Positions 4,787 to 62,609 of a stretch of DNA of 64,000 nt are shown in pieces (the stretch's first letter is position 1; each line of letters opens with the position of its first letter). The stretch comes from Streptomyces sp. NBC_00690. Lineage in GTDB: Bacteria; Actinomycetota; Actinomycetes; Streptomycetales; Streptomycetaceae. A program made the translations under genes and the position numbers. The notes under the pieces are model-generated. The model saw only the letters and a program-made list of their open reading frames with translations, did no database searches and was not told where the DNA came from. The stretch is from assembly GCF_036226685.1 (NCBI RefSeq), contig NZ_CP109010.1:62001-126000 (forward strand), read 5' to 3'.

Positions 4787-5016
4787 ACCGCCGTCCAGCT
4801 CGGTAACGCCCGGTACGACGTCGGCGAGATGACACGCACTCTCGACCGCCTGCTCGGCCCGCTGATCGACCCCGGCGCGGCCCGCGCGTTCAGGCCCATA
4901 CCCAGGTCAACAATGCAGCCGGGGAAGCGATCACCACGGATCACGCTGGTACTCAGTGGTGGAAGCGGCGACTACAGGCGCTCGCGCGCGACCGCCGCCT
5001 CGCACGCACCGTATAG
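4787..5016 (+). pseudogene. frameshifted gene remnant, family unknown
   Basis: A natural-looking stretch VQLGNARYDVGEMTRTLDRL then LLGPLIDPGAARAFR is followed, in another frame, by NNAAGEAITTDHAGTQWW and RRLQALARDRRLARTV before a stop at 5014. Codon use switches frame near 4895. I do not recognise the family. Confidence 0.35.
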
Positions 5017-5059
5017 GACCGGGTGGCGGGTATGCCTCAGTCGTCTTCCAACGGTCGTC

Positions 5060-5285
5060 GGCAAGAGTTCGCTTCGAGCAGACCGGCAACTGTTCCGAAC
5101 CGGGTCGGCTCGTTCCCCGGCGCTGGTGTGCGTGTCGGGCTCGGACGATGAGGCAGGTGGCGCAGTAGCCGGCGCCGACGCTCACCAGCAGGGTGTGGCT
5201 CCCGGGTGGGGGCCGTTGCTTGAGGGTGAAGGCGAGGTTGGCGATGCGGTCGCCGCCTCCGAGGTGACCAGTGTGGGAGCCGTAC
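5060..5285 (-). pseudogene. KAS III (FabH-like) C-terminal remnant, inverted
   Basis: Read on the minus strand, GSHTGHLGGGDRIANLAFTL and PPGSHTLLVSVGAGYCATCL match the C-terminal end of 3-oxoacyl-ACP synthase III-like enzymes, where a GH..G.DR.aNL segment precedes a Gly-rich final strand. A middle piece of a similar enzyme lies head to head on the plus strand from 5285. An inversion inside a former KAS III-like gene is the simplest explanation. Confidence 0.65.
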
Positions 5286-5545
5286 CGCCCGCACCGCCCT
5301 CGCCGATGCCGGCCTCACCCCCGAGGACGTGGACCTTCTCATCCACTGCTGGGTTTACGAACAGGATGAGGGGGTCTGGAGCCCCGCCCACCGCGTCGCC
5401 CGGCTCACCGGTGCGCACCACTGCATGGCGTTCGGCCTGCTGCAGCAGTCCAACAGCGGAGCCACAGCGATCGAGACAGCCCTCCACAGAATCACCACGG
5501 ACCCCAGAACCACCACGGTCTTGATCACCACCGCCGACAAGACGA
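5285..5545 (+). pseudogene. KAS III (FabH-like) middle fragment
   Basis: The frame gives ALADAGLTPEDVDLLIHCWV, WSPAHRVARLTGAHHCMAFG and SNSGATAIETALHRI ending in VLITTADK, as in KAS III-like enzymes of secondary metabolism. Where the family has the active-site Cys (often QMCNGGA) this copy has QQSNSGA, so Ser replaces Cys. Both ends are missing; the C-terminal end of such an enzyme is inverted next to it. Confidence 0.65.
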
Positions 5546-5640
5546 TGCAGGTCGTATTCGCCGAGTCCCTCCAGCCTGGAGAGCAGACCAGCCCGTGCAG
5601 CCCGCAGCTTGCGGTGCAGCTCCGCTTTGAGATCAGTCAT
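5545..5640 (-). pseudogene. DinB-family (mini-DinB) N-terminal remnant
   Basis: On the minus strand an ATG at 5640 opens MTDLKAELHRKLRAARAGLL followed by SRLEGLGEYDL, the usual start of DUF664/mini-DinB four-helix proteins. After about 32 residues the frame enters the KAS III fragment in antisense, so the gene is cut off. From here to 5993 I see no supported gene. Confidence 0.55.
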
Positions 5641-5993
5641 CCCACGGGTGGCAGGAGCGAGATCGGCATCAAGGTGATCGCCACGTCCTTTCACGCCTCG
5701 GACCGCCTGAGCATCGTGCAGCCGGTGGACCTTCCCGAACCCCGGCGCTGGAGCAGAACGGATGCGGGACCGGAGAAGAGGTGGCGACAGCGCGAACCAA
5801 CTCCCGGGAGCACCTGAACGGACCCCGTTGTGCAGTCAGCGGGATGCGGATGCGCTCGTTGTACGTCAGTGGCGCCTCCGGTGACATGGTCGACTCGGCC
5901 ACGCACGGCCACGGGAGGTACGTCGCCTCATCTCCTGATCGCCGTGCGGGCAGCGGTAGGGAACTCAGTGGCGAGAGCGGCGGGCCGTTTTCC

Positions 5994-15626: not shown

Positions 15627-16604
15627 ATGGGATCCATATACCGCTCCATCGCGGGGCGCGAGGCCATCAGCCGCTGGTGCACAGACCGGCTCGACGGCTG
15701 GGCGGTGGCTCATAAACGGGTGACGCTGACCGTGTCCGGTGTGCGGACGCATGTGGTGACCGCCGGGACGGGGAGCCCGGTGCTCTTCCTACCGGGGACC
15801 AACTTCAACGCAGCAGCATCCCTGCCGCTGGCCACCGCTCTGGCCGCGGCGGGGCACCGCGTCATCCTGCCGGACGTCCCCGGACAGCCCGGCCTCAGCT
15901 CCGGTGAACGCGGGCTCGCCAAGGGTCGGCTGTCCTGGTACGGCACCTGGCTGAACGAGGTCATCGAACAGACCATTGCCGCCCCCGTGACGGTGATGGG
16001 GCACTCCTTCGGCGCCGCCGTAGCCCTGTCCTGCCACTCCCCGCACATCGAACGGCTCGTCCTCGCCTCCCCCGCCGGACTGACCAGACTCAGCGTCCCC
16101 CCACACCTCCTCGCCGCCTCCACCGCCTGGTTCCTACGCCCCACCCCCACAAGCAGCGCCCGCCTGCTACGCGCCATGTCCGCCCCCGGACGCCAACCAC
16201 GTAACGAGCTGGTCGAGTGGATGACCCTCGTCGCACGGCACTCACGCTCCAGCGGGGCACCCGGCCGCGCCGAACCACCATCCGGCCAGCGGTGCACGCA
16301 GCTGGCCGTCACAGGAGCCAACGACGTCTTCCTCCCACCCCACCGACTACGCCGCGCAGTCCACGACACCCTCAAAACCGAACTACAAGTCGTCCCCGGA
16401 GCCGGCTCGTACTGCATCGTGCTGGCATCGGGCGTTCAGGCCATCAAGTCCATCCCGATGGCCACCCTCAGCAACGACGCCCCCAGGGGCAGCGACGTCC
16501 GCGTCTCGCGCAACGACGCCTCCTGTCCGGGCAACTCCATTCGCGTGACCACCGGCACCGACGGTGTGGCGGTGAACCGGCCGTTCTACTTCCTCGTCCC
16601 GTAG
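15627..16604 (+). CDS. alpha/beta hydrolase with a foreign C-terminus
   Basis: Residues 1-258 follow the hydrolase fold: VLFLPGTNFNAAASLP, nucleophile GHSFGAAVALS and acid region TGANDVFLPPHRLRRAV. At about 16405 homology to the remnant at 4423 stops, just before the catalytic His (GGGHLLVEEHP there). It is replaced in frame by a Ser/Asn-rich tail that ends TDGVAVNRPFYFLVP. The end of that tail and the hairpin behind it recur at 24771-24852. The protein is therefore a chimera without its third catalytic residue and is probably inactive or re-purposed. Expression is not disproved, so it is kept as a CDS. Confidence 0.65.
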   Translation: MGSIYRSIAGREAISRWCTDRLDGWAVAHKRVTLTVSGVRTHVVTAGTGSPVLFLPGTNFNAAASLPLATALAAAGHRVILPDVPGQPGLSSGERGLAKGRLSWYGTWLNEVIEQTIAAPVTVMGHSFGAAVALSCHSPHIERLVLASPAGLTRLSVPPHLLAASTAWFLRPTPTSSARLLRAMSAPGRQPRNELVEWMTLVARHSRSSGAPGRAEPPSGQRCTQLAVTGANDVFLPPHRLRRAVHDTLKTELQVVPGAGSYCIVLASGVQAIKSIPMATLSNDAPRGSDVRVSRNDASCPGNSIRVTTGTDGVAVNRPFYFLVP

Positions 16605-16618
16605 CAGCTTCGTGCTGA

Positions 16619-16651
16619 GGTGTCCCGTCCCGGTAGCCCGGGCGGGACACC
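16619..16651. terminator. hairpin terminator
   Basis: GGTGTCCCG pairs with CGGGACACC with further G/C pairing inside. A near copy follows the same coding tail at 24818-24852. Confidence 0.75.
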
Positions 16652-16928: not shown

Positions 16929-17204
16929 ATGAGCACGGTGGACGAAACACAGCACACGTGGAGCAGTGACGACCCGGTGATCGTGCGGGCGACGGCCATC
17001 GTGGCGCAGACGCTGGGGCGCGACGCCGAGTCGCTGCGGCCCGAATCGGTTCTGGCCGACGGCCCGGGCGCCGACGAGGAGGGCCTGGCCAACGTCGCCT
17101 CCCTGCTGGAGATGGAACTGGACATCGACGGTCTCTACGAGGACGCCGGCGACTGGGAGACCGTCGGCGACATCCTCGACAGCGTCCACGACCAGACGGC
17201 CTGA
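16929..17204 (+). CDS. acyl-carrier-protein-like protein without the carrier serine
   Basis: A 91-aa acidic protein whose residues 22-91 align along the whole ACP fold: IVAQTLGRDAESLRPESVL, then DGPGADEEGLANVASLLEME, then WETVGDILDSVHDQ. In carrier proteins the motif is GADS, with the Ser bearing phosphopantetheine; here it is GADEE, so the Ser is Glu. It could not be loaded in the normal way. GGAGGAG before the ATG gives a strong start. The HMG-box gene begins 39 bp downstream on the same strand, so the two are probably co-transcribed. Confidence 0.75.
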   Translation: MSTVDETQHTWSSDDPVIVRATAIVAQTLGRDAESLRPESVLADGPGADEEGLANVASLLEMELDIDGLYEDAGDWETVGDILDSVHDQTA

Positions 17205-17243
17205 CCGCCGCACACCTCGCCGCTTCGAGAACGAGAGACCGGG

Positions 17244-17543
17244 ATGACCAGCGAAACCACCAAGACCACCGCCAAGGACAAGACCCGCGCCCGGGGCAAG
17301 AAGGACCCCCACGCCCCCAAGCGCGCCCTGAGCGCCTACATGTTCTACTCCCAGGACCACCGCGAACGCGTGAAGCAGGCCAACCCGGACGCTTCCTTCT
17401 CCGAGACCGGAAGGATCCTGGGGAACGAGTGGCGGTCCCTGTCCGACACGGACAGGAGGCCCTACGAGGAGAGGGCCGCCAGGGACAAGTCGCGAGCCGA
17501 CGCCGAGATGGAAGCCTACGAGGCCCGGCACGCGGACGACTAG
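17244..17543 (+). CDS. HMG-box DNA-binding protein (Nhp6/HMGB-like)
   Basis: A 99-aa protein made of a basic N-terminal arm (TTAKDKTRARGKKD) and one HMG box (about residues 20-92). KKDPHAPKRALSAYMFYSQ is almost the same as the start of the box in yeast Nhp6A and other fungal/animal HMGB proteins. The NPDASF turn, LGNEWRSLS with the core Trp, and RRPYEERAARDKSR of helix 3 are also conserved. HMG boxes bind the minor groove and bend DNA; the box is essentially a eukaryotic fold. It probably acts on the nucleoid. Codon use is normal for this G+C-rich host, so any transfer was not recent or has been ameliorated. The ribosome-binding site (GAGAG) is modest; it may be coupled to the ACP-like gene. 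Confidence 0.9.
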   Translation: MTSETTKTTAKDKTRARGKKDPHAPKRALSAYMFYSQDHRERVKQANPDASFSETGRILGNEWRSLSDTDRRPYEERAARDKSRADAEMEAYEARHADD

Positions 17544-18792: not shown

Positions 18793-20706
18793 ATGTCCTC
18801 ACGTTCCGCGTTACACCCATCGCTTATGCGGCGGCTTTCCGCGCTGGTCGTCTCCGGCGCCCTGGCCCTGACCGGGCTGGTCGCGCTCACCGCCCCGGCC
18901 GCGCAGGCTCTCGCGGCGGCGCCGGTGGCATATGTCGCCGACCTGAACGACAACACCGTCTCCGCGGTGGACACCGCCACCAACACCGTCACCGCGACGA
19001 TCCCCGTCGGCAACAGCCCGGTGGGCGTGGCGGTGTCCTCGGACGCGGCGTCGGTCTATGTCGCCAACTCCGGCTCGAACTCGGTGTCGGTGATCGACAC
19101 CGCCACCAACACGGTCACCGCGGCCTTCGCGGTCGGCGCGGGGCCCGTCAAGCTCGCGCTGTCTCCCGGCGGCGCCAGCCTCTACACCGCCAACTCCGGC
19201 GCGAACACGGTCTCCGTCGTGGACACCGCCACCAACACCGTCACCTCCACCGTGGCCGTCGGCAGCGCCCCGTACGGTGTCGCGCTGTCCCCGGACGGGT
19301 CCCGCGCGTATGTCTCCAACAACTCATCCGCGTCGGTGTCGGTGATCGACACCGCCACCAACACCGTCACCGCCACCGTCGGCGTGGGCGCGAAGCCCAA
19401 TGTCATCGCGGTGTCCCCGGACGGGTCCCGGGCCTATGTGACCAACCAGAACTCTCAGAGCGTGTCGGTCATCGACACCGCCACCAACACCGTCACCGCG
19501 ACCGTGGCCGTCGGCTTCGGTCCGTTCGGCATCTCGCTCTCCCCGGACGGGTCCCGCGCGTACGCGAGCAACAACAGCGGCAGCTCGGTCTCCGTCATCG
19601 ACACCGCCACCAACACCGTGACCGCCACCGTCGGCGTCGGCAGCGGCCCGTTCGGCTCCGCCGTCACCCCCGACGGCGCCTCCGTCTACGTCCCCAACGG
19701 CTACGACGGCACCGTGTCGGTCATCGACACCGCCAGCAACACCGTGACCACGACCTTCACGGTGGGCACGTTCCCGTACGCGATCGGCTTCAAGCCCGCC
19801 AGCAGCGTCCCCTCCGCGGACCTGGCCTCGACGGTCACGGACTCGGCCGACCCGGTCCCCCTGGGCGATGCGCTCACCTACACCCACACCGTCACCAACA
19901 ACGGCCCGGCCACCGCGACGTCGACGACCTCGACGCTGACGCTGTCCGGCTCCTCGGCCACCATCCTCTCCGCGACCAGTTCCCAGGGCTCGTGCACCAT
20001 CAGCGCGCCCACCGTGAACTGCACCCTCGGCACCCTGGCCAACGCCGCCTCCGCGACCGTCACCGTCACCGTCGAACCCCAGTCCACCGGCACCATCACC
20101 GCGACCGGCACCACCGCCTCGGCCGTCGCCGACGCCACCCCGGGCAACAACTCCGGCGCGCAGAACACCACGATCGCCAACAGCCACGGCTGCACGATCA
20201 CCGGCACCCCCGGCAACGACACCCTCAACGGCACCAGCGGCAACGACGTCATCTGCGGCCTGGGCGGCAACGACACCATCAACGGCGGCAACGGCACCGA
20301 CACCGTCCACGCCGGAACCGGCAACGACAAAATCGACGGCGGCAACAACGACGACACCCTCCACAGCGGCGCCGGCGACGACATCATCAGCGGCGGCAAC
20401 GGCGCCGACCACCTGTACGGCGAGGCCGGCAACGACACCAGCTACGGGGAAACCCTCCTCGGTTCACTGCTGCACCTGTTCGACAACGGCAACGACCACA
20501 TCCAGGGCGGCCCCGGAAACGACGACCTCGACGGCCAGAACGGCAACGACACCCTCACCGACACCAACGGCACCGACACCATGAGCGGCAGCCTCGGCAA
20601 CGACAACATCAACGTCCAGGACGGCACCGGCGGCGACACCGCCCACGGCGGCCTCGGCTCCGACACCTGCACCGCGGACACCACAGACACCACCACCGGC
20701 TGCTGA
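18793..20706 (+). CDS. secreted YVTN beta-propeller / DUF11 / RTX-like protein
   Basis: A 637-aa secreted protein. After a signal peptide (ALVVSGALALTGLVALTAPA) come about eight YVTN repeats of 42 residues (unit VSVIDTATNTVTATVAVG with AYVSN/VYVAN), enough for a propeller. A DUF11-type strand-rich domain follows (ALTYTHTVTNNGPATATS). The C-terminus has RTX-like nonapeptides (GGNDTINGG, GNDKIDGG, GDDIISGG) that bind calcium. RTX repeats usually go with type I secretion, yet this protein has a Sec signal. The 126-bp repeats are strikingly alike in DNA sequence, so unit number may vary. Start 18793 was preferred over 18781 because GAAGAAGGG would lie too close to the latter. Confidence 0.88.
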   Translation: MSSRSALHPSLMRRLSALVVSGALALTGLVALTAPAAQALAAAPVAYVADLNDNTVSAVDTATNTVTATIPVGNSPVGVAVSSDAASVYVANSGSNSVSVIDTATNTVTAAFAVGAGPVKLALSPGGASLYTANSGANTVSVVDTATNTVTSTVAVGSAPYGVALSPDGSRAYVSNNSSASVSVIDTATNTVTATVGVGAKPNVIAVSPDGSRAYVTNQNSQSVSVIDTATNTVTATVAVGFGPFGISLSPDGSRAYASNNSGSSVSVIDTATNTVTATVGVGSGPFGSAVTPDGASVYVPNGYDGTVSVIDTASNTVTTTFTVGTFPYAIGFKPASSVPSADLASTVTDSADPVPLGDALTYTHTVTNNGPATATSTTSTLTLSGSSATILSATSSQGSCTISAPTVNCTLGTLANAASATVTVTVEPQSTGTITATGTTASAVADATPGNNSGAQNTTIANSHGCTITGTPGNDTLNGTSGNDVICGLGGNDTINGGNGTDTVHAGTGNDKIDGGNNDDTLHSGAGDDIISGGNGADHLYGEAGNDTSYGETLLGSLLHLFDNGNDHIQGGPGNDDLDGQNGNDTLTDTNGTDTMSGSLGNDNINVQDGTGGDTAHGGLGSDTCTADTTDTTTGC

Positions 20707-20962: not shown

Positions 20963-22495
20963 CTACCGGCGGCGTCCGAACAGGCCGCGGCTCTTCTTCA
21001 CCCCCGCTTCCGCCACCGCGCGGGCAGCGGCCTCCTCCGCCCGACGGCGGGCAGCACGTTCGGCTTCGGCGGCGGCTTCCCTCCGGGCGACGTCGTCGCC
21101 GTGGCACACCCCGCACACGGACAGGTCGCCGGCCTTCCAGGCTCCGGGGCGCGCAGTGGTCTCCTCCCAGCGCTGGTCGGTGAACTTCGCCCCGCACCGC
21201 GAGCACACCGGCCGCTGCGCCTCCCGTTCGGCGGCCCGCTGCCGCTTGTCCTTCTCCTCGACCCGCTCGTACTGGCGCCGGTAGAGGGCGTCGCCGTCGG
21301 GGTTGTCGAGCGCGGCGGTCAGCGTCTGCTCACCGGTGCGGCCGAGACGTCGCCACACCGCCGCGTCCGCGCCGTGCTCCTGGAGCCGCTCCAGGGTGGT
21401 GACGACCACGGGCACCACCTGGCCGTAGTCGAGGGCCGTGATCCCCCCGTAGAAACTGTCGTACCGGCGCGGTGCCCAGTACCGTCGGCCCGCCTCCTCC
21501 AGCACCTTCACGGTGTTGGCGACCCTGGCGGCCGTGGTGTCGGCGAACACAAACGCCAGCGGAGGTGTGCCCTCCCTGCCGGTCGGCGGGTAGACCCGGC
21601 GCCACAACCGCTCCTCGTGGCCGACAAGCTGCTCGATCGCGTCCGGCCGGGAGCGGACCAGGTCCACGGTGCGCTGGTCCGCGTCCGGAGGGAGCAGCCG
21701 GAACCAGTCGGCGTAGCGGCGGAGTTTGCGGACCAGCTGGTGGGCGTCTTCGGTGCGGCGGTCGATCTCCAGGAGCAGGATCGGCACCTTGGCCTGGGGT
21801 GCCCGCATCACGAGGTCGGCCCGCTGGACGTAGCCGCCTGTGAGCCGGTGAGGGATCTCGGTCTGGAAGGCGAGCGGGTACCCGATCCCGGAGCGGTGGA
21901 GTTCGGCGGCGGTCGAGGTGACCGCCGCGGCGTGGTCGCTGTAGCCGGTGCCGAGCAGCTCCCCCGTGTCCGGGTCGTACTCCTCCTTGCGGAGCACCGA
22001 GACCCGTATGCCCTCCGGCTCCAGGAGCTTCCTCGCCTCACGGTGTCCCCGGTCGGTGAGCACCCACACCTGCCGCTGGTCCTTCTGGACCGATTCAATC
22101 CTCACCAGGCGGTGGTCCTCCATGTCCAGGAGGTTGTCCCGCGTGAGCCTGTCGTGGCGGTTGCCGGGGCGGGTCAGCTTCCACAGCTGCTCGGGCGTAG
22201 CCCTCTGGAAGATCCCCAGCGCTTGCAGCAGCTCCTGGCGTCGAGGTTCGGTCGAAGTCCTCCGGTGCTCAGGGCGCCTTGCTACATCTACATGAGGGAT
22301 GTCGGCGCTGCGACGACCCCCCGACCGTCCGGGCTGACCTGCGGAAACGCGCCTGGCGGGGGAAGTGGCCGCGGAGGGGGTGATGGAGGGGCCCACGGAG
22401 AGGGCCTCTCCGGTCTGGTCAAGGGGATGCTCGGGGCCGTCGGGAATGCCCACAGGAGGCTCCTGGAGGTGGGGCGGGCCAATCCCGCCATTCAC
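20963..22495 (-). CDS. replication-relaxation family protein
   Basis: A 510-aa protein with the winged-helix start of the replication-relaxation family (ELLQALGIFQRATPEQLWKL), a central nuclease-like region (YVQRADLVMRAPQAKVPILL then EIDRRTEDAHQLVRKLRRYA) and a C-terminal zinc-ribbon-like CSRCGAKF...CGVCHG followed by an Ala/Arg-rich coiled coil. Members are found on actinomycete plasmids and integrative elements and are thought to act in replication. The first about 85 residues are low-complexity, so the true start may lie downstream. The region upstream (22.5-22.9 kb) holds a cluster of TTGGC repeats that could be its binding sites or an origin. Confidence 0.8.
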   Translation of the reverse strand: MNGGIGPPHLQEPPVGIPDGPEHPLDQTGEALSVGPSITPSAATSPARRVSAGQPGRSGGRRSADIPHVDVARRPEHRRTSTEPRRQELLQALGIFQRATPEQLWKLTRPGNRHDRLTRDNLLDMEDHRLVRIESVQKDQRQVWVLTDRGHREARKLLEPEGIRVSVLRKEEYDPDTGELLGTGYSDHAAAVTSTAAELHRSGIGYPLAFQTEIPHRLTGGYVQRADLVMRAPQAKVPILLLEIDRRTEDAHQLVRKLRRYADWFRLLPPDADQRTVDLVRSRPDAIEQLVGHEERLWRRVYPPTGREGTPPLAFVFADTTAARVANTVKVLEEAGRRYWAPRRYDSFYGGITALDYGQVVPVVVTTLERLQEHGADAAVWRRLGRTGEQTLTAALDNPDGDALYRRQYERVEEKDKRQRAAEREAQRPVCSRCGAKFTDQRWEETTARPGAWKAGDLSVCGVCHGDDVARREAAAEAERAARRRAEEAAARAVAEAGVKKSRGLFGRRR

Positions 22496-23077: not shown

Positions 23078-24604
23078 GTGAGCACTCCTCAGGCGGCAGA
23101 CACCGGTGGCGAGGACTCGGCACCCCGGATCAGCACGGTCGCGGGGACCGGGGTTGCGGGGTTCGCCGGGGACAGCGGACCAGCCGTGTCCGCGCAGTTG
23201 AACCGTCCCTACGGTCTCGTGATGGACAGCGCCGGCACCCTCTATTTCTCCGACCGCGACAACCACCGGCTCCGCAGGATCACGACCGACGGGAAGATCA
23301 GCACGGTCGCGGGCACCGGCACCGCCGGATCCGGGGGAGACGGTGGCCCCGCCACCTCCGCCCAGATGAAGCACCCGCGTGGGATCACAGTGGACAGCGC
23401 TGGCAACCTCTACGTCGCCGACAGTAACAACCACCGCATCCTGAAGATCACGGCCGATGGGAAGATCAGCACGGTCGCGGGCACCGGCACCGCGGGATTC
23501 GGGGGAGACGGTGGCCCCGCCACCTCCGCCCAGTTGAAATCCCCTTTCGCGGTGGCGGTGGACAGCTCCGGCGTCCTCTACGTCTCTGAGTTCGGCAACC
23601 ATCGGGTGCGGAAGGTTACGCCGGACGGGAAGATCAGCACGGTTGCAGGCGTGGGAACTGCGGGCTTCGGCGGTGACGGCGGCCCGGCCGATTCGGCCCA
23701 GCTGAACAAGCCGAGCGACCTGTGTCTGGACAGTACGGGCACCCTCTACTTCGCCGATGGCGGCAACCATCGGGTGCGGAAGGTTACGCCGGACGGGAAG
23801 ATCAGCACGGTTGCAGGCGTGGGAACTGCGGGCTTCGGCGGTGACGGCGGCCCGGCCGATTCGGCCCAGCTGAACAAGCCGATCGGCCCGGTTCTGGACA
23901 GTACGGGCACCCTCTACTTCGCCGATGCCGCCAATCATCGGGTGCGGAAGGTTACGCCGGACGGGAAGATCAGCACGGTGGCCGGTACGGGTGCTGCCGG
24001 CTTCAGCGGCGACGACGGCCCGGGAACAGCCGCCCAGCTGAACAACGTGATCGGGCTCGCTGTGGACTGTGTCGACACGCTTTACATCGCCGACCTCTTC
24101 AACAACCGGATCCGGAAGATCGCGTCGGAGAGGATGGCCGGTTTGCCCGAGTCGGGCACGGTGGTTTCCTGGGCCAATGTGCGCAGCAGGCTGCGGATGG
24201 GGGTCCTGCGTGAGTCCACGAAGGACAGGGCCGAGATCCACCAGGCCCTGGCTTCTCCCAGGTCTCACCAGCGGTGGCGGCTGATCGTGTCGGGCCAGGA
24301 CGAGGGTGAGGTCCTGTACCGGATCGAGAACGTGCGCAGCGGCAAGGTGCTGGAGGTCGTCGGAGGAGGCACCGTCGACGGGGCGGTGGTCGCGCAGCGT
24401 GCCTACGAGGGCAGCGACGCCGAGCACCAGCAGTGGAGGCTGATCCCGATGGGGTCGGTGACCGACACCCCGCGGGTCTATGAGATCGCGAACCGCAACA
24501 GCGGTCTGCTGCTGCGCGTCGACACCAACGCCCCCACGGTGATCAAGCAATACAGCGTGCAGGACGATCACCGCGACCGCCAGTGGCAGCTGCTCCCCGT
24601 GTGA
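23078..24604 (+). CDS. NHL-repeat propeller with ricin-type lectin domain
   Basis: A 508-aa protein with six NHL-type repeats of 56 residues (unit ISTVAGTGTAGFGGDGGPA then LYVADSNNHRIRKI) followed by a ricin-B-like trefoil with RWRLI, QQWRLI and RQWQLL motifs. It probably binds a carbohydrate or another extracellular ligand, yet no signal peptide is visible after the GTG at 23078 (GAAGGGA upstream). The longer open frame also lacks one. Two neighbouring repeat units (about 23598-23714 and 23766-23882) are identical in DNA, period 168 bp, showing recent duplication or conversion. A perfect 34-bp palindrome terminates the gene. Confidence 0.85.
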   Translation: MSTPQAADTGGEDSAPRISTVAGTGVAGFAGDSGPAVSAQLNRPYGLVMDSAGTLYFSDRDNHRLRRITTDGKISTVAGTGTAGSGGDGGPATSAQMKHPRGITVDSAGNLYVADSNNHRILKITADGKISTVAGTGTAGFGGDGGPATSAQLKSPFAVAVDSSGVLYVSEFGNHRVRKVTPDGKISTVAGVGTAGFGGDGGPADSAQLNKPSDLCLDSTGTLYFADGGNHRVRKVTPDGKISTVAGVGTAGFGGDGGPADSAQLNKPIGPVLDSTGTLYFADAANHRVRKVTPDGKISTVAGTGAAGFSGDDGPGTAAQLNNVIGLAVDCVDTLYIADLFNNRIRKIASERMAGLPESGTVVSWANVRSRLRMGVLRESTKDRAEIHQALASPRSHQRWRLIVSGQDEGEVLYRIENVRSGKVLEVVGGGTVDGAVVAQRAYEGSDAEHQQWRLIPMGSVTDTPRVYEIANRNSGLLLRVDTNAPTVIKQYSVQDDHRDRQWQLLPV

Positions 24605-24916: not shown

Positions 24917-25456
24917 ATGACCACGTCCGTGCAGAACGGCCGTGTCCAGAGCAGCTTCGCCGGCTGGGACGTCGACGGTGACGGCCGTATCGACCGGGCC
25001 GACTGGGAAGCCGATGCCAGGCGCGTCCTCCAGGCTTTCGGCGAAACCCCCGCCTCCCCGTCCGGCCGTGCGCTGAGCGACGCCTACCTGGACCTGTGGG
25101 ACTTCCTTGCCGAGAAGGCCGGGATCGACGCGCACACTGGTGCGCTGACTCCCGAACAGTTCAAGACTGTGGTCGATGACCGCATCATCGGCAGTGACGG
25201 CGCGGGCTTCGCCAAGGCCCTCACGCCGGCCATCAAGGCCCTGATCAAACTGGCGGACAGGGACGGCGACGGCCAGATCAACCCGCGCGAGTTCATGACC
25301 TGGCTGAAGGCGGTCGGCGTCCGGACCTCCGACATGGGCACCCCGTTCGCCCAGATCGACACCAGCGGCAACGGGCAGCTTTCCACGGAAGAACTGGTCC
25401 AGGCCGTTCGCGCCTACTACCTCGATGAGGTCGACGTACCGCTTCTCGGCCACTGA
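24917..25456 (+). CDS. EF-hand calcium-binding protein (calerythrin-like)
   Basis: A 179-aa cytoplasmic protein with four EF-hand positions. EF1 (DVDGDGRIDRADW), EF3 (DRDGDGQINPREF) and EF4 (DTSGNGQLSTEEL) look able to bind calcium; EF2 (DAHTGALTPEQF) is degenerate. This is the calerythrin arrangement known from Saccharopolyspora and Streptomyces, a sarcoplasmic-protein-like calcium buffer or sensor. CAGGAGACAG precedes the ATG. A hairpin terminator follows at 25482. Confidence 0.93.
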   Translation: MTTSVQNGRVQSSFAGWDVDGDGRIDRADWEADARRVLQAFGETPASPSGRALSDAYLDLWDFLAEKAGIDAHTGALTPEQFKTVVDDRIIGSDGAGFAKALTPAIKALIKLADRDGDGQINPREFMTWLKAVGVRTSDMGTPFAQIDTSGNGQLSTEELVQAVRAYYLDEVDVPLLGH

Positions 25457-27504: not shown

Positions 27505-27918
27505 TCACCACAGCCAGGCATTCGAGTGCCGTACCCGGGACAGGGCGCGGGCATCGCGGCGCGCGGCCGCGTTGCCGATCCGGCTCTGCCGGGACCGAGG
27601 TCGGTGCGACTCCCTGGCTGCGAGGCGGCGCTTGACGGCGTCCTGGAGCCGCCGCCGTTGCTTGCGCAGCTCCCGCTTCTTCTCCGCCTTCGACTTCGGC
27701 TTCCGGGGCCGCTTCCAGACCGGCTGCCACCCCACAGGCTCATCGGGCTCAAGCTCATCGAGCTCGGGCTCCTGGTCCTCGTCGAACTCGGAGGCCGTCC
27801 CCTCGTGGGCCGCGCGGGCTCGGGCGAGGGCGTCCTTCAACCCCGGGATCTCCAGCTTCTCGGAGTTCTCCAGGTTCTCAGGGCTTTCGGGGTTTTCGGG
27901 GTTTTCGGGCGTGGTCAT
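27505..27918 (-). CDS. relaxase-coupled basic protein, 137 aa
   Basis: Family not recognised. The N-terminus is an acidic tandem of PEN/PES units; the middle is acidic (DEDQEPELDELEPDE). The C-terminal half is strongly basic (WKRPRKPKSKAEKKRELRKQ, RRLQDAVKRRLAARE), suggesting a coiled, nucleic-acid-binding region. The ATG overlaps the stop of the relaxase gene (ATGA), so the two are translationally coupled and it may be a relaxosome accessory factor (inference). A frameshifted copy is at 7385-7667. The last about 25 residues lack conservation with that copy. Confidence 0.7.
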   Translation of the reverse strand: MTTPENPENPESPENLENSEKLEIPGLKDALARARAAHEGTASEFDEDQEPELDELEPDEPVGWQPVWKRPRKPKSKAEKKRELRKQRRRLQDAVKRRLAARESHRPRSRQSRIGNAAARRDARALSRVRHSNAWLW

Positions 27919-29756
27919 GCGGGTCCTCCCGTGGGGGTCCGGCCAGGCGTCTGCTGCGCGCCGGGCGGCGGGGTGTGTGACGGCGCGGGCGACGGCGGGG
28001 CGGGATGCGGCCGGGGGCCGCGGGCGACGGCGCGCTCCCGGACGCCGTCCTGGAGCTTGGCGGCCATCTTGGCGACGGCCTCGATCGTGGCGCGGGTCTG
28101 ATCCAGCGCGGCAACGTCGGTCCCCTGCTGCTGTGCACGGCCGGCCTTCCGGTCCGGGCGCGATGGCCGCGGGCCAGACCTCGACGCGTCGGGCACGGTG
28201 ACATGGTGCGGGCGGGTGCGGAAACCGAGGCGCTCCGAACGCCGGGCCGCATAGACCCGGGCACTCAGCGCGCCGGCGGCAATGCGGGCCCGCGCGTAGA
28301 GGGCAAGCGCTCGGTTGCGGGTCAGCGGGCGCAGCACGGCTTGGTCGTCGGTGTCGTGCGGGTACAGGGTGCGCAGGTCGGCGGTCATCGCCAGGCCCCG
28401 GCCGACGGGGCGGGTGTAGTCGTCGATCACGGTCTGCACGATCTGTTCGTCCAGGCCGGGTTCATGGGGTCGGCCGCGCAGGACGTAGGAGAGGCAGCGG
28501 CGTGCTTCGGCGAGCAGGTGATGGCGCTTGAACGCCCCGCGCATCACGTACACCACGGCCACGGTGTCGACGGCCGCCAGCACGATGTCGACCACCGGCC
28601 GCACCCGTGCCCACACCGCCGCGGCCGCCGCCCGCGCCCGCTGTGCCAGTTTGTAGATGGTGCAGGCGCCGAACGCGGCGATGGCCGACTCCCGCCAGCT
28701 CTCGCGCAGCTTGGACAGCGGCCGTGGCTCCTTGCGCTTGGGCGGGCGGGTCCGGTCGGCGGCCCGGCAGGCCAGCCCGTAGGCGGCTTTCTCCCCCGGC
28801 GCGTGCCCGTGCTCCTCCACGTACTCGGCGGTGAGGACGAACAGCGCTTCCTCGATCTGCTGACGGCGCGTGGACTGCCAGCCGATGAGCCGCTGGTCGA
28901 TGCCGGCGATCTCCATGACGGGACGGCGGCCGGGTGTCACCTCGCGCGGCTCCCAGGCCCACCCGAGCCGCGCCGACACCTCCTCCATGAAGAACAGGAG
29001 GTACAGGGTGTCGGCGGCGACGATGTGGGCCAGCAGCGTGTCCGCTGACAGGTTGCCCCATGTGCCCTTGGCGTCCGGCCGGCGGGCGCGGATCGACACC
29101 ACCGCATGATCGTGCAGTAGCGGCTTCGACTCCTCAGCTCTGGACTCGTAGTGCCGGAACACCGCGACGATCAACCCGTCGCGGACCGGTGTGCGGTGCT
29201 TGCCGCCGCTCCCCGACCGGATCTGAGCGACCGACTCCCCCACCCACGCCAACGTCTTGTCCACAGCGGTGTCCTGGCACGACTCCAGCACCAAGCGGGT
29301 CTCGTCATCGGTGAGCGCCCACGCGATGTGTGCCGTCGGCGGCGGCCGGAACACCAGGTCCATGCCCAGCCAAGGCGTGCGCTCCTTGGCCTTCTCCGTC
29401 TCCGGTGACCGGTTGTGCTCGACGGGCCTGCCCAACACCGTCGCCCGACGGGCCTTCGCCGGATCGTCGCCCGCATCCAGGCGCTCGCGCTCGATCCGGT
29501 CCGCGTCCGGGTGCCGCCCCTCCCCCAGGAGCAGCTCGGCCTGCCGCTCCGTCACCACATCCCCGGCCGTGAGGCCGACCGCCGTAAGGCCATGTCCCCT
29601 CCAGATCCCGGGCGGGACACCCGCCTCGTCTTGGGCGTCGCGCAGCGCCGTGCCCGCGGGGCGGTGGCCGTCACCGACCATCACGCCGCGGAAGAGGTAG
29701 CGCACTCCGTCACCCGGGCGGAGCGCCGATTTGCTGATCACCGGGCCATGGAACAC
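27915..29756 (-). CDS. MobF-family (TrwC-like) relaxase
   Basis: A 613-aa protein whose N-terminal half is a TrwC-type relaxase: the family opening RPGDGVRYLFRGVMVGDG, AGDVVTERQAELLLGEGRH and the metal-binding His motif LLHDHAVVSIRAR. It would nick one strand at oriT and stay bound through a Tyr near the N-terminus. No helicase motifs are seen in the C-terminal half, which is helical and ends in a Pro-rich tail, so it is a helicase-less form. The ATG at 29756 is used; a GTG at 29741 is equally plausible, because the copy at 59.7 kb aligns from there. Candidate oriT lies directly upstream. Truncated copies are at 7664 and 59410. Confidence 0.88.
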   Translation of the reverse strand: MFHGPVISKSALRPGDGVRYLFRGVMVGDGHRPAGTALRDAQDEAGVPPGIWRGHGLTAVGLTAGDVVTERQAELLLGEGRHPDADRIERERLDAGDDPAKARRATVLGRPVEHNRSPETEKAKERTPWLGMDLVFRPPPTAHIAWALTDDETRLVLESCQDTAVDKTLAWVGESVAQIRSGSGGKHRTPVRDGLIVAVFRHYESRAEESKPLLHDHAVVSIRARRPDAKGTWGNLSADTLLAHIVAADTLYLLFFMEEVSARLGWAWEPREVTPGRRPVMEIAGIDQRLIGWQSTRRQQIEEALFVLTAEYVEEHGHAPGEKAAYGLACRAADRTRPPKRKEPRPLSKLRESWRESAIAAFGACTIYKLAQRARAAAAAVWARVRPVVDIVLAAVDTVAVVYVMRGAFKRHHLLAEARRCLSYVLRGRPHEPGLDEQIVQTVIDDYTRPVGRGLAMTADLRTLYPHDTDDQAVLRPLTRNRALALYARARIAAGALSARVYAARRSERLGFRTRPHHVTVPDASRSGPRPSRPDRKAGRAQQQGTDVAALDQTRATIEAVAKMAAKLQDGVRERAVARGPRPHPAPPSPAPSHTPPPGAQQTPGRTPTGGPA

Positions 29757-31835: not shown

Positions 31836-32279
31836 ATGAACGACGAGAACGGAAGCAAGGACTCCGGCGTCGGCCCAGCCGCATTCGTCGGCCTCTACAT
31901 GCAAACCCTCCGCGCCCGCATGGCACCCGCGGAATACAAGACACTGGCCACAGCGGTCAACGAGTTCTGCCGCCAGATCGCCAAGGGCGGTACCGGCTCC
32001 TTCCAAATCGACGACGCCGCATTCACCCCTGGCATCCACCAGGAACTCATGACCGTCATCACCATGCTCGCCACCGGCCGCGCCGACCACCACTACATCG
32101 ACGTGCCCGGCCCGAACGGAACGTTCGGCGGAGCCATGGTCCAAGCCGACATCGCCCACGACCCCGAACAACTCGCCGCCGTCCGCGCGAAACTGAACAA
32201 CTGGTGGGCACGGCGGGAAGCCGAAGACGCGACGCTCGACGGCATCGCCCGGGTTAGCGGCCTGGACACCCAGCGGTGA
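31836..32279 (+). CDS. MNDENG-family protein, copy 1 (147 aa)
   Basis: Unknown family, present three times in the window (also 39350 and 62166) at roughly 90 % identity. The protein is soluble and mostly helical: AAFVGLYMQTLRARMAPAEY, then TAVNEFCRQIAKGG, IHQELMTVITMLATGRADHH and a C-terminal REAEDATLDGIARVSGL. The about 100-bp leader (from 31737; contains GGACTTGGGGAGGAAGCGGG just before the ATG) is as conserved as the coding part. A toxin remnant precedes it, so an ancestral toxin-partner unit is possible. The gene seems to have inserted into and cut the gene at 32281. Confidence 0.85.
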   Translation: MNDENGSKDSGVGPAAFVGLYMQTLRARMAPAEYKTLATAVNEFCRQIAKGGTGSFQIDDAAFTPGIHQELMTVITMLATGRADHHYIDVPGPNGTFGGAMVQADIAHDPEQLAAVRAKLNNWWARREAEDATLDGIARVSGLDTQR

Positions 32280-39349: not shown

Positions 39350-39793
39350 ATGAACGACGAGAACGGAAGCAAGGATTCCGGCGTCGGCCCAGCCGCATTC
39401 GTCGGCCTCTACATGCAAACCCTCCGCGCCCGCATGGCACCCGCGGAATACAAGACACTCGCCAAAGCGGTCAACGAGTTCTGCCGCCAGATCGCCACGG
39501 GCGGTAACGGCTCCTTCCAGATCGACGACACCGCATTCACCTCTGGCCTCCACCAGGAACTCGCCACCGTCATCACCATGCTCGCCACCGGCCGCACCGA
39601 CCACCACTACATCGACATGCCCGGCCCCGACGGCTCCCTCAACGGGGCCATGGTCCAAGCCGACATCGCCAACGACCCCGAACAACTCACCGCCGTCCCA
39701 ACCAAGCTCAACACCTGGTGGGCCCAGCGGGAAGCCGAAGACGCGACGCTCGACGGCATCGCCCGCGCCAGCGGCCTGAACACCCAGCGGTGA
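39350..39793 (+). CDS. MNDENG-family protein, copy 2 (147 aa)
   Basis: Same length and start as the gene at 31836, with about 20 substitutions, many conservative (KAVNEFCRQIATGGNGSFQI, LHQELATVITMLATGRTDHH, PDGSLNGAMVQADIANDPEQ). The leader from about 39251 is nearly identical to that of copy 1, and a toxin remnant lies just upstream. The open frame and the pattern of substitutions argue for a working gene under selection. Family unknown. Confidence 0.85.
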   Translation: MNDENGSKDSGVGPAAFVGLYMQTLRARMAPAEYKTLAKAVNEFCRQIATGGNGSFQIDDTAFTSGLHQELATVITMLATGRTDHHYIDMPGPDGSLNGAMVQADIANDPEQLTAVPTKLNTWWAQREAEDATLDGIARASGLNTQR

Positions 39794-44878: not shown

Positions 44879-45501
44879 CGGGGGTCCTTCATGAAGCAGG
44901 TGATGGCAGCAACGATCGGGCTGGCGACTTCTCGCGGAGAGCCTGGAGTCGCGTCCACGTCGAGGACACGCGCGCCCTGGGCCCGTAGGTATCGACCGGC
45001 CTCGGCGAAGTACGCGAGCTCGATTCGGCTGCCATCCTCCTGCATCTCGTACCGGCTATGGGCGCCTCGGGCCGCGAGCCGGCTTTCGATGACCTCTGGC
45101 GGCGCGCTGAGGATCACGGTCAGGTCGGGCTGGATGACACCCTCGTTCAGCAGCCAGACGAAGTCTCGATCGACGCCGTCCATGCACTGAAGGGCCAGTG
45201 AACTGGCGATGTACCGGCCACAGATGACCACCTCTCCCCGATCCAGGGCCGGTTGAATCTCCTGCGCGTGCTGGTATCGGCCAGCCGCGATAAGGCAGGC
45301 CATCGCCGTACCTCGGTATTCCTGCGTGCCGTAGCGTGCGAGGTCCCCCAAAGGGGTGTCCGTTGGCTCTCTCGTGGCGAGGACCGGTACCCCCTGTTCG
45401 GTCAGCATCTGTGCCACGGCGGCCGTGACGGTGGACTTTCCCACGCCGCCCGGCCCTTCGATCGCAACCAGCAATCCCGGCCAGCCCGTCCGTTCGGTCA
45501 C
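44875..45501 (-). CDS. thymidylate-kinase-like P-loop protein
   Basis: A 208-aa protein with the P-loop EGPGGVGKSTVTAAVAQ, the TREPTDTPLG nucleotide-binding loop, CGRYIASSLALQ at the position of the dTMP-kinase DRY motif (here GRY) and a lid region RLAARGAHSRYEMQ. It resembles dTMP kinase, but the DRY Asp is Gly and this is surely not the housekeeping copy. The GTG overlaps the stop of the radical SAM gene and its own stop overlaps the next ATG, so it is coupled on both sides. Possibly it phosphorylates a nucleotide or a peptide-linked intermediate (inference). Confidence 0.85.
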   Translation of the reverse strand: MTERTGWPGLLVAIEGPGGVGKSTVTAAVAQMLTEQGVPVLATREPTDTPLGDLARYGTQEYRGTAMACLIAAGRYQHAQEIQPALDRGEVVICGRYIASSLALQCMDGVDRDFVWLLNEGVIQPDLTVILSAPPEVIESRLAARGAHSRYEMQEDGSRIELAYFAEAGRYLRAQGARVLDVDATPGSPREVASPIVAAITCFMKDPR

Positions 45502-46607
45502 GAGACACCCACCACGGGCAGCATGCGCGACCGCTTGGGCACGATCGGGCATTGCTCGGTATCGACGGCGCCGATCCGTTCGCCGGCCGCCACCACGGCG
45601 GCTGGGCAGCCCTTCCCGCAGGAGCCCGACAGTGAGCAGCCCCCGCAGGTGGGGTTCGCGCCGACGGTCCAATGGTCGCTGAAGCGACCGTACGCATCGA
45701 GCTTGGCTGCGACGTCGTCGTCACTCCAGATGTTGCCGACGAAAAAGTCGGTGTCCGGGTGCTGGCTCACCGTTGTTCGGGCCGCGAATACGAGGTAGGG
45801 GCAGACCGCTACCCCGCCGTCGGTGAACACGTAGATGATGCTGCCGGCCTCGCAGCCAGCGAGGGGCCGATCGTCGTTGGGGAATCGGATGTGTACGACG
45901 TCCAGGTCCTCCGCCGCGGCGGACACGGTCGCGGTCCTGATGTGCCGCATGTGGTCGTCGGGGCGAGCCAGCTTGCGCTGGGAGTTCTCCCCGCGGCCCA
46001 TGGGGCCCAGCGGATTCATCAGGACGTAGGTAGCGCCTTGCTCTTGGGCGAAGCGCACCAGGTCCTCATACTCGTGGTCTTGTGCCAGATTGTTCGGCGT
46101 GCACAGGAGGCCCTGGAGGATGCCCGCCTTGGCAAACCGTCTGACGGTCTCAGCGGTTTCCGTGAACGACTCCGGCTGGCCGCGGAACCGGCTGTGCGAC
46201 TCTTCTGCGAAGCCGTCCAAGCTGACGTTCATGTGCGCGTCCATCTCGGCCAGGGCGGAGATCTGCGGGTCGGTCACCAACGTGGCGTTGGTGCAGACGC
46301 CTACGCCCATGCCGGCTTGGCGGAATGCAGCGGCGATCTCGATCAGGTCGGGGTGCATGAACGGCTCGCCGCCGGTGAGGGTCACACGGGTGACCCGGGC
46401 TTCGGCGAGCTGGGGGATCAGCCGCTTGCGGACCTGGCCCAAGGGCATGTAATCGCCGCGTTTCGTCGCGCTGACGAAGTAGTGCGCGCACTTCTCGTTG
46501 CACGGCTCGCAGATCTGGATCAGCGCTTTGCGGTGAGGACTGTCGACGGTGGTCCGGAAGTAGCAGGACGACGCCTGTTCAGCGGTGTTGATTAAGCGGG
46601 CAGTCAC
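45498..46607 (-). CDS. radical SAM/SPASM enzyme with an altered cluster motif
   Basis: A 369-aa radical SAM protein: the SAM-binding RVTLTGGEPFMHPD is normal and a SPASM-like C-terminus holds many Cys (AGCEAGS, AVCPYLVF, CGGCSLSGSCGKGC). The cluster motif, however, reads CEPCNEKCAHYF. In the canonical CX3CX2C the third Cys would stand where Tyr is (a TAC codon; TGC would restore it). An extra Cys three residues before might substitute. SPASM enzymes often modify ribosomal peptides, and a 46-residue peptide gene lies 1.1 kb upstream in the same direction. AAGGAGA precedes the GTG. Coupled to the kinase-like gene. Confidence 0.87.
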   Translation of the reverse strand: MTARLINTAEQASSCYFRTTVDSPHRKALIQICEPCNEKCAHYFVSATKRGDYMPLGQVRKRLIPQLAEARVTRVTLTGGEPFMHPDLIEIAAAFRQAGMGVGVCTNATLVTDPQISALAEMDAHMNVSLDGFAEESHSRFRGQPESFTETAETVRRFAKAGILQGLLCTPNNLAQDHEYEDLVRFAQEQGATYVLMNPLGPMGRGENSQRKLARPDDHMRHIRTATVSAAAEDLDVVHIRFPNDDRPLAGCEAGSIIYVFTDGGVAVCPYLVFAARTTVSQHPDTDFFVGNIWSDDDVAAKLDAYGRFSDHWTVGANPTCGGCSLSGSCGKGCPAAVVAAGERIGAVDTEQCPIVPKRSRMLPVVGVS

Positions 46608-46778: not shown

Positions 46779-47639
46779 TCAGGCCGCGGACATGTCGTAG
46801 TGCGCGAACCGCTCCCCTGACACCGACTCGGCGACGAGGTCCAGGTCATAGGAGTCGGTGAACTCACGTAGCTCCTGGACGAGGAGCTGCCCGTACGGGG
46901 TGAACTGGCCGAGCTTGTCCATGAGGCCGTCGGTGCACTCCCTCAGGGAGTCGCGGAGCTGGTCGACCCGGTCCGTTTTTCCGCGACGTGCTTGCATCAG
47001 CATCAGCGGCGGCACAACTGCGCCGGAGTGGAAAGCCTGATCCAGCGGTCGCATGTGGCCGGCGTTCACGGCCGACACGACGCGGTGCTCGTCGCCCGCC
47101 AGTTCGCGGACCGGCTTCGTGTAGAGCCGGTATGCCATGTCCGCCAGGTACACGTTCAGATGGACGGCCTGGCGGACGAGTGAGTCTGCGAAGTCGTACA
47201 CCTGCCAGCTGTCACCGGGGCTCATCGACACCAGGCCCGGCAAGTGTGAAGCGGACGCACTGCCCTTGTTCTTCGAGCTGAAGCACACGATGTCGGTGAC
47301 GACCAGGTTCACCAGAGCGCCGAGACCGGCAGAGAGCTCCTCGGTGTGGGCGATCGCGGCCTCCAGTTGCCGAAACCATTCCATCTCCTGGTGCGCCTCG
47401 GTGTCGGCCAGGCCCTCGACGAGGTGCTCGAAAGTCCGGCCCTTCTCCAGGTGTTGGCCCCACGGGCCTTGCCGGAACTGGACTTCGGTGCCGACTGGCG
47501 GGGCAGGCAGGACCCGCATTTTCGAGATGACTCGCCGGTATGAAGTGTCCAGCTCATCGGGCATCGGCTCACAGCCGTGCAGGGCGGTGACGAGGCGGGA
47601 GATGGTCTCCTGGGTGTGATCCAGGTTGAGGAAGCGCAC
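46779..47639 (-). CDS. HExxH-peptide-hydroxylase-like protein with a lost motif
   Basis: A 286-aa helical protein. The segment SASASHLPGLVSMSPG followed by FADSLVRQAVHLNVYLADM parallels the mod_HExxH (aKG-HExxH-type peptide beta-hydroxylase) family, where S.SH...G.V....  is followed by LVHE..H. Here HE is RQ and only the last His remains, so iron binding is doubtful. Those proteins accompany radical SAM enzymes and small peptides in actinomycetes, as here. AAGGAG precedes the GTG at 47639. A hairpin separates it from the peptide gene. The about 170 bp between this gene and the radical SAM gene hold no clear frame. Confidence 0.6.
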   Translation of the reverse strand: MRFLNLDHTQETISRLVTALHGCEPMPDELDTSYRRVISKMRVLPAPPVGTEVQFRQGPWGQHLEKGRTFEHLVEGLADTEAHQEMEWFRQLEAAIAHTEELSAGLGALVNLVVTDIVCFSSKNKGSASASHLPGLVSMSPGDSWQVYDFADSLVRQAVHLNVYLADMAYRLYTKPVRELAGDEHRVVSAVNAGHMRPLDQAFHSGAVVPPLMLMQARRGKTDRVDQLRDSLRECTDGLMDKLGQFTPYGQLLVQELREFTDSYDLDLVAESVSGERFAHYDMSAA

Positions 47640-47718: not shown

Positions 47719-47859
47719 CTACTCGGTTCCGCAGCCCATCGTCGAGATGGCCTCGGCGAGGAACGCCGAGACGTTCGTCCGGACGGTCGCCACCTCTGCG
47801 GTCACCTCGCCGGTCTCGTTCTGCACGCCTTCGGGCGTGATCGTGTCGTCAGTGGTCAC
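47719..47859 (-). CDS. precursor-like peptide, 46 aa
   Basis: A short gene with AAGGAGAAGACC before its GTG. The product has an acidic, hydrophilic N-terminal part (TTDDTITPEGVQNETGEVTA), a helix-like middle (TNVSAFLAEAIS) and ends in STMGCGTE. An acidic leader plus a short Cys/Gly/Ser/Thr-rich end is the usual plan of precursors of ribosomally made, modified peptides. It stands upstream of an HExxH-like and a radical SAM gene and is split from them by a hairpin. The core and any modification are unknown. Confidence 0.65.
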   Translation of the reverse strand: MTTDDTITPEGVQNETGEVTAEVATVRTNVSAFLAEAISTMGCGTE

Positions 47860-47959
47860 GGTCTTCTCCTTGTTGGTGTTCTCCACCGGGCCATCCGCGG
47901 TGGAGTCGTGCCCTGGCCGGCCCCCTCCCCCGGGTTCACCCTCGGGGTGGTTCCGGCCC

Positions 47960-62165: not shown

Positions 62166-62609
62166 ATGAACGACGAGAACGGAAGCAAGGACTCCGGCGT
62201 CGGCCCAGCCGCATTCGTCGGCCTCTACATGCAAACCCTCCGCGCCCGCATGGCACCCGCGGAATACAAGACACTCGCCACAGCGGTCAACGAGTTCTGC
62301 CGCCTGATCCCCAGGGGCGGTAACGGCTCCTTCGAGATCGATGACACCGAGTTCACCCCAGGCATCCACCGGGAACTCATGACCGTCATCACTATGCTCG
62401 CCACCGGCCGCGCCGACCACCACTACATCGACATGCCCGGCCCGAACGGAACGTTCGGCGGAGCCATGGTCCAAGCCGACATCGCCAACGACCCCGAACA
62501 ACTCGCCGCCGTCCGAACCAAGCTCAACACCTGGTGGGCGCAGCGGGAAGCCGAAGACGCGACGCTGGATGGCATCGCCCGCGCCAGTGGATTGGGCCCT
62601 CGGCGGTGA
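62166..62609 (+). CDS. MNDENG-family protein, copy 3 (147 aa)
   Basis: Same start, length and layout as the genes at 31836 and 39350 (TAVNEFCRLIPRGGNGSFEI, IHRELMTVITMLATGRADHH, NGTFGGAMVQADIANDPEQL). The conserved leader begins at about 62067 and is slightly shortened; here no toxin remnant precedes it. Three full-length, non-identical copies in 31 kb suggest a gene that is maintained and moved as a unit. Family unknown. Confidence 0.85.
   Translation: MNDENGSKDSGVGPAAFVGLYMQTLRARMAPAEYKTLATAVNEFCRLIPRGGNGSFEIDDTEFTPGIHRELMTVITMLATGRADHHYIDMPGPNGTFGGAMVQADIANDPEQLAAVRTKLNTWWAQREAEDATLDGIARASGLGPRR

Follow-up and report, generated by a model that had tools for sequence, protein, structure and literature searches.

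The open reading frame at 17244..17543 (plus strand) of a 64,000-nucleotide stretch of Streptomyces sp. NBC_00690 DNA, hereafter the window, encodes one HMG box, complete and of the Nhp6/HMGB kind. Just upstream of it lies a gene for a protein that has the fold of an acyl carrier protein (ACP) but lacks the phosphopantetheine serine, and in S. natalensis related units carry an actinobacterial IHF where the window carries the HMG box. On the whole, we consider it probable that this is a real and host-adapted HMG gene, of eukaryotic and probably fungal Nhp6-type ancestry, that fills the second slot of a two-gene module and acts there as a DNA bender together with its ACP-like partner.

An HMG box in an actinomycete

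The frame is translated without interruption into 99 aa, with the box at about residues 22-95 and an N-terminal arm before it. The Pfam model HMG_box (PF00505) matches the product with 77.5 bits (E 1.1e-21; cut-off, 25.4 bits) and is covered in full, from position 1 to 69 of 69, while HMG_box_2 reaches 63.3 bits. In a phmmer search of the PDB, HMGB1 was the leading match (3e-25), and yeast Nhp6A (1cg7) was retrieved at 2.3e-23. The stretch KKDPHAPKRALSAYMF is identical to its Nhp6A counterpart at 15 of 16 positions, with H replacing N. More generally, the likeness to yeast Nhp6A and fungal Nhp6 comprises the single complete box, the basic N-terminal arm, the motif KKDPxAPKRALSAYMF, and the M, F, and W positions. 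The core Trp (W63) is kept in all five bacterial HMG-box proteins compared here, as is M33, which aligns with Met29 of Nhp6A; F52, aligned with Phe48 of Nhp6A, is kept in four of the five and is V in the Kitasatospora protein. Met29 and Phe48 are what we take to be the intercalating (wedge) residues of Nhp6A. Thus, with one box, a basic N-terminal arm, and M33 and F52 at the wedge positions, the protein falls in the Nhp6/HMGB class.

An AlphaFold2 model built on 25 sequences predicts helices at residues 31-46, 52-65, and 68-95, with a core pLDDT of about 95 and a disordered arm. This is the three-helix HMG fold, and in a Foldseek comparison of the model with the PDB, yeast Nhp6A ranked first (49% identity across 78 columns), other HMG boxes matching as well. 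The preliminary description of this DNA, which was made from the letters alone, had recognized a complete eukaryote-type HMG box in an actinomycete, nearly the same in sequence as Nhp6A and with the core Trp in place, and the profile, the PDB sequence matches, and the predicted fold all bear this out. The basic arm, which it had likened to that of Nhp6, and the helix-3 basic pattern stand only in part: the arm is mostly basic but contains some acidic residues too, and the helix pattern is roughly present, with a net charge of the box core of +1 versus +4 in Nhp6A. The window protein further differs from Nhp6A and fungal Nhp6 in its bacterial host, in its pairing with an ACP-like gene, and in E62, which is found in all five bacterial proteins versus 37 of 209 other boxes.

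In the five bacterial proteins, the reading frames are open and the box core is intact, with 35 invariant columns; the four other than the window's are 56-89% identical to it. Codon use is host-like, as had been stated, with a GC3 of 0.94. Between the window and S. natalensis, the differences by codon position are 22, 20, and 31 of 85, which alone is no demonstration of selection.

Textbooks treat HMG boxes as chromatin proteins of eukaryotes. A PF00505 match occurred in 1 of 392 genomes of the genus, 3 of 394 of the family, and 1 of 396 of the phylum (these samples overlap, and each includes the window's own genome), and in none of 14 control genomes. A single-sequence protein search with the 99-aa product gave six matches, namely, the window's own protein and those of S. 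anulatus (89% identity), Streptomyces sp. P8-A8 (85%, on a replicon that the source labels a plasmid), a metagenome (56%), Kitasatospora purpeofusca (62% over 79% of the query), and Mycena (62% over 75% of the query). A profile search gave 3876 matches; among the 120 listed, the named organisms are eukaryotes except for Streptomyces and Kitasatospora, and many matches are nameless. The nearest kin of the window protein, among the matches listed, are four Streptomyces/Kitasatospora proteins, followed by fungal Nhp6. The S. natalensis gene was found at the DNA level, as the sole genome-contig match of an alignment-based scan. No match was obtained when that scan was applied to viral contigs, when the single HMG protein was used to scan genome contigs and viral contigs, or when this protein was compared with plasmids and phages by tblastn. 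This rare and patchy distribution supports the view, implied in the preliminary description, that the HMG box does not represent a broad native bacterial family.

The accompanying statement that HMG boxes are almost confined to eukaryotes is mostly right, with a known exception in Spiroplasma endosymbionts. Their HMG boxes also reside on plasmids (four records; loci L038 and L039), but they are 30-37% identical to the S. natalensis box and belong to arthropod symbionts. No ACP-like ORF was found at the two Spiroplasma loci in a standard-code ORF scan, which may split Spiroplasma genes. HMG-box proteins are mentioned for S. ixodetis of the pea aphid in an excerpt of PMC13085286. In the best-matching open-licence literature, no account was found of an HMG box in Streptomyces or of a module of ACP-like and HMG genes.

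Genomic setting and ancestry

The HMG ORF is the sole PF00505 match in its genome, which is assembled in two contigs (completeness 100, contamination 0.61), and it sits on the secondary one, of 335,986 bases. Because the window contains genes for a TrwC-type relaxase (27915..29756, minus strand) and a Replic_Relax (replication-relaxation) protein (20963..22453, minus strand), this 336-kb contig is most likely a large plasmid. Contamination is unlikely as the source of the ORF, since relatives at 85-89% identity occur on other contigs from other organisms, and chance is ruled out.

Several other features of the window are recorded here in their own right. Where the hydrolase gene ahead of the pair ends, about 250 bases (16402-16651) are 73-88% identical to at least seven S. 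anulatus plasmids. Close to the HMG gene, 23078-24604 and 24917-25456 encode a protein with NHL repeats and a ricin-type lectin domain and then an EF-hand protein; these domains are frequent in eukaryotes. Three 147-aa ORFs (31836-32279, 39350-39793, and 62166-62609) are near-identical over their first 40 residues (MNDENGSKDSGVGPAAFVGLYMQ...), and a Pfam search with the product of the first gave no match. Farther along, at 45498-46607, 46779-47639, and 47719-47886, a radical SAM protein gene lies close to a short 55-aa ORF, possibly as a peptide-modifying cluster.

Movement of the HMG gene from a eukaryote to a bacterium is well supported by the distribution of HMG boxes. Its ancestry is probably of the fungal Nhp6 type, a fungal Nhp6-like donor being the best guess. 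The suggestion that it came from soil fungi agrees with the closest eukaryotic matches listed, which are fungal Nhp6 proteins, mostly basidiomycete, but trees place no donor. In a 75-row tree, four of the five bacterial rows group with two basidiomycete rows and a metagenome protein, P0008 (support 88/81), and the S. natalensis row has no resolved placement. In a 56-row tree, the window, S. anulatus, P8-A8, and Kitasatospora proteins form a clade (95/85), and neither S. natalensis nor Nhp6A has a fixed placement; a single clade of all five bacterial rows is not rejected (p 0.17), and the gene may have been acquired once or, with S. natalensis separate, twice. Constraining the bacteria and 24 sampled basidiomycete-type rows of this tree to one clade is rejected (p 0.027), in a test that omitted P0008 (two metagenome boxes), which nests among basidiomycetes. 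The attempt to name a donor from the trees was abandoned, as these were built on 92 and 99 columns and many of their forks are open. The shared residues Y35 and E62 also failed as an argument for a single origin, the pair being present in 28 of 209 other boxes.

The ACP-like partner and the two-gene unit

The ACP-like gene (16929..17204, plus strand) encodes a protein of 91 aa with a pI of 4.05 and a charge of -19 at pH 7. Its ACP fold is indicated both by a 13-sequence profile, which retrieves ACPs from the PDB (best E 3.3e-13), and by the predicted model (pLDDT 80), which matches ACPs in fold. Nevertheless, the members scanned fall below the curated cut-offs of acyl carrier proteins (PF00550/TIGR00517). 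For the window protein, Pfam gave no match at 0.001, and NCBIfam ACP models gave at most 28.3 bits against a cut-off of 71; three of four relatives scanned score just below the cut-off of PP-binding, and that of K. purpeofusca has no match. PHROGs yielded nothing beyond a weak match to ACP (0.041), and a PADLOC match to Cas8b (0.0074) was dismissed as being at chance level. When the position of the missing serine is set by alignment to the serine of ACP 2ehs, none of 14 aligned members has it: 11 have E, 2 have D, and 1 has L. The window protein has E, reading GADEEGL in place of the GADSL of ACPs. Without the serine, the protein could not serve as an acyl carrier in the ordinary sense.

A search with the ACP-like protein gave 17 matches: 4 are ordinary serine-bearing ACPs, and the other 13, which clearly belong to the group, come from Streptomyces, Kitasatospora, and nameless sources. 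Hosts of the gene that carry a name include Streptomyces sp. AV19, S. morookaense, S. klenkii, DK15, NPDC057249, and NPDC015346. The three members of S. natalensis have a glycine-rich start in common. A tree separates the 14 members (93/89) from serine-bearing ACPs and from a more distant serine-less ACP-like gene of another genome, G119 (L037:1483-2031; 51 bits), which clusters with ordinary ACPs and has neither HMG nor IHF alongside. Strong matches are scarce. A search of 297 genomes gave two (the window's genome and G602), with other matches at 36.9 bits or less, and one of 392 genomes also gave two (the window's genome and G119); the absences in these searches are soft, because only 16 and 12 candidates per genome, respectively, were scored. 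Among 29 S. natalensis relatives, only S. natalensis itself has the gene, in three copies, and in a genus presumed by guess to be Kitasatospora there were 0 of 70 matches in a search that had no positive control. No match was found in viral contigs, or in plasmids with either the window member or the S. natalensis C18 member as the query; the S. morookaense member gave a single weak plasmid match, from Ensifer (39.7% over 63% of the query).

At all three HMG loci read as DNA, the ACP-like gene lies 36-39 nt upstream of the HMG gene, with gaps of 39 nt (window), 37 nt (S. natalensis), and 36 nt (Streptomyces sp. MZ04). The 39-nt spacer of the window (17205..17243, plus strand) resembles that of S. 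natalensis, which suggests that the two genes form one transcription unit. In K. purpeofusca, the HMG and ACP-like proteins are each assigned to a contig with a length of 9,296,031. The second gene of MZ04 encodes an HMG box of another type (YABBY, 36.5 bits; HMG_box, 34.7 bits over model positions 4-48), and it stops short at its overlap with a DDE transposase gene of the opposite strand (L006:4758-4982 and 4909-5703).

In S. natalensis, two further ACP-like genes are each followed, 35 and 34 nt on, by a gene for a 104-aa actinobacterial IHF. These two proteins score 118.2 and 117.1 bits with actino_IHF (NF041260; cut-off, 60), are 90% alike, and have about 40% identity to the genome's separate IHF copy; the first has mIHF (6tob) and SCO1480 (4itq) as PDB relatives, and a search of phages with the partner IHF gave no match. 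At five of five strong ACP-like loci (at least 94 bits) read as DNA, three of them from the one S. natalensis genome, the product of the next gene is therefore a DNA-binding protein of the small architectural sort; the sixth, weaker locus of G119 has no such neighbor. The window's genome also encodes its own actinobacterial IHF, on its other contig. The pairing is not general to plasmid IHFs, as none of 10 plasmid mihF loci, chosen from 56 matching records, has an ACP-like ORF within 2 kb.

Since both come 34-39 nt after an ACP-like gene, the HMG box and IHF occupy the same slot of one apparently undescribed two-gene module. The preliminary description mentioned neither the partner gene nor this module. 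The fold of actinobacterial IHF is S13-like H2TH, unrelated to that of the HMG box, and IHF is native to actinobacteria; units that carry it instead of the HMG box suggest that the latter is a borrowed chromatin part, exchangeable for the native one. Among the neighbors scanned, no family recurs between the three HMG loci beyond the pair itself. The window has hydrolase, cold-shock, and beta-propeller genes there, S. natalensis has genes of the glyoxalase, GNAT, and transposase families, and those of MZ04 are of MFS, L-PSP, TetR, and phosphatase type.

Possible function and meaning

In the module as we envisage it for Streptomyces and Kitasatospora, slot one would hold an acidic, serine-less ACP-fold protein and slot two either actinobacterial IHF or an HMG box. 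The HMG-box and IHF families both bend DNA, and mIHF and sIHF are small DNA-bending nucleoid proteins. Because the two families share no fold, the most economical view is that the slot calls for a protein that bends DNA, and the nucleoid-bending role suggested for the HMG box in the preliminary description becomes more plausible given that the ACP-like gene elsewhere precedes IHF. If expressed, the box would bind in the minor groove largely regardless of sequence, M33 and F52 would be wedged between base pairs to bend the DNA, and the protein would serve plasmid and host as an additional nucleoid-associated protein. The ACP-like protein would be produced along with it and would most likely act as a non-catalytic adaptor or as an acidic modulator of DNA binding. 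With its charge, it would be suited to contacting a basic DNA binder or to mimicking DNA, and as an adaptor it may resemble apo-AcpP on MukB. In an excerpt of PMC8602292, the MukB ATPase is stimulated alike by apo- and holo-AcpP, an instance of cofactor-free ACP action on a chromosome machine. As the HMG-box and IHF folds are unrelated, it is difficult to see how the ACP-like protein could engage both through a single specific contact, and thus the contact would have to be electrostatic or the proteins would have to have a third target in common.

That this amounts to an undescribed actinomycete module, with a serine-less ACP as the dedicated regulator of an interchangeable DNA bender and a eukaryotic HMG box in replacement of IHF, is put forward tentatively, its chances falling a little short of even. 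Against our preferred explanation stand the box core, less basic than that of Nhp6A, the G119 gene without an HMG or IHF neighbor, and the MZ04 gene, which is of another HMG type and is shortened beside a transposase gene.

The box could instead be a stand-alone acquired nucleoid protein that bends plasmid DNA, with the ACP-like gene as a merely co-travelling neighbor. Nhp6 is not known to need any ACP-like partner in yeast, and the plasmid mihF loci show that IHFs occur without one; the recurrence of the pair at three HMG and two IHF loci with a spacing of 34-39 nt, together with the similar spacers of the window and S. natalensis, makes this rather unlikely. Less likely still is a regulator of biosynthesis or lipid metabolism, in which the ACP-like protein would sense or carry acyl groups in an unusual manner and the DNA bender would relay this to transcription. 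The ACP fold would fit, as would three upstream genes: one for an alpha/beta hydrolase in the window (15627-16604); one for a GNAT acetyltransferase in S. natalensis, some 1.3 kb ahead of the pair; and one in MZ04 that precedes the pair by some 2.2 kb and matches Peptidase_S15 below the cut-off. However, the attachment serine is absent from all 14 members, the neighbors scanned include no ketosynthase or acyl-ACP enzyme family, and only the pair recurs across the three loci.

Export of the HMG box as an effector on the chromatin of fungi or other soil eukaryotes is very improbable: bacterial IHF occupies the same slot elsewhere, and no secretion-machine family was matched by Pfam among the 24 scanned of 47 called window genes. 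RTX-repeat proteins are often secreted, and one with RTX calcium-binding repeats is encoded downstream (18826-20706). The eukaryotic ancestry of the box would also be in keeping with export, and Spiroplasma HMG-box proteins are postulated, in the excerpt of PMC13085286, to contribute to the manipulation of host reproduction. Finally, a decaying, functionless import retained through plasmid hitch-hiking alone would account for the rare and patchy distribution and for the shortened MZ04 copy, but it is the least credible of these readings in view of the open frames and conserved box core of the five bacterial proteins and the high GC3.

Under the preferred reading of a borrowed DNA bender, the finding has a precedent at the bench, as HMG boxes have been able to replace bacterial HU in laboratory work. 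Here, a free-living bacterium appears to have made and kept such a swap naturally. This would offer a clear-cut way to ask whether DNA bending, rather than a particular fold, is what such an architectural slot of bacteria demands, and it hints at a second life for the ACP fold beside DNA. If true, bacteria would have naturally swapped a chromatin part of their own for one from another domain of life, and a retired carrier protein would regulate it.
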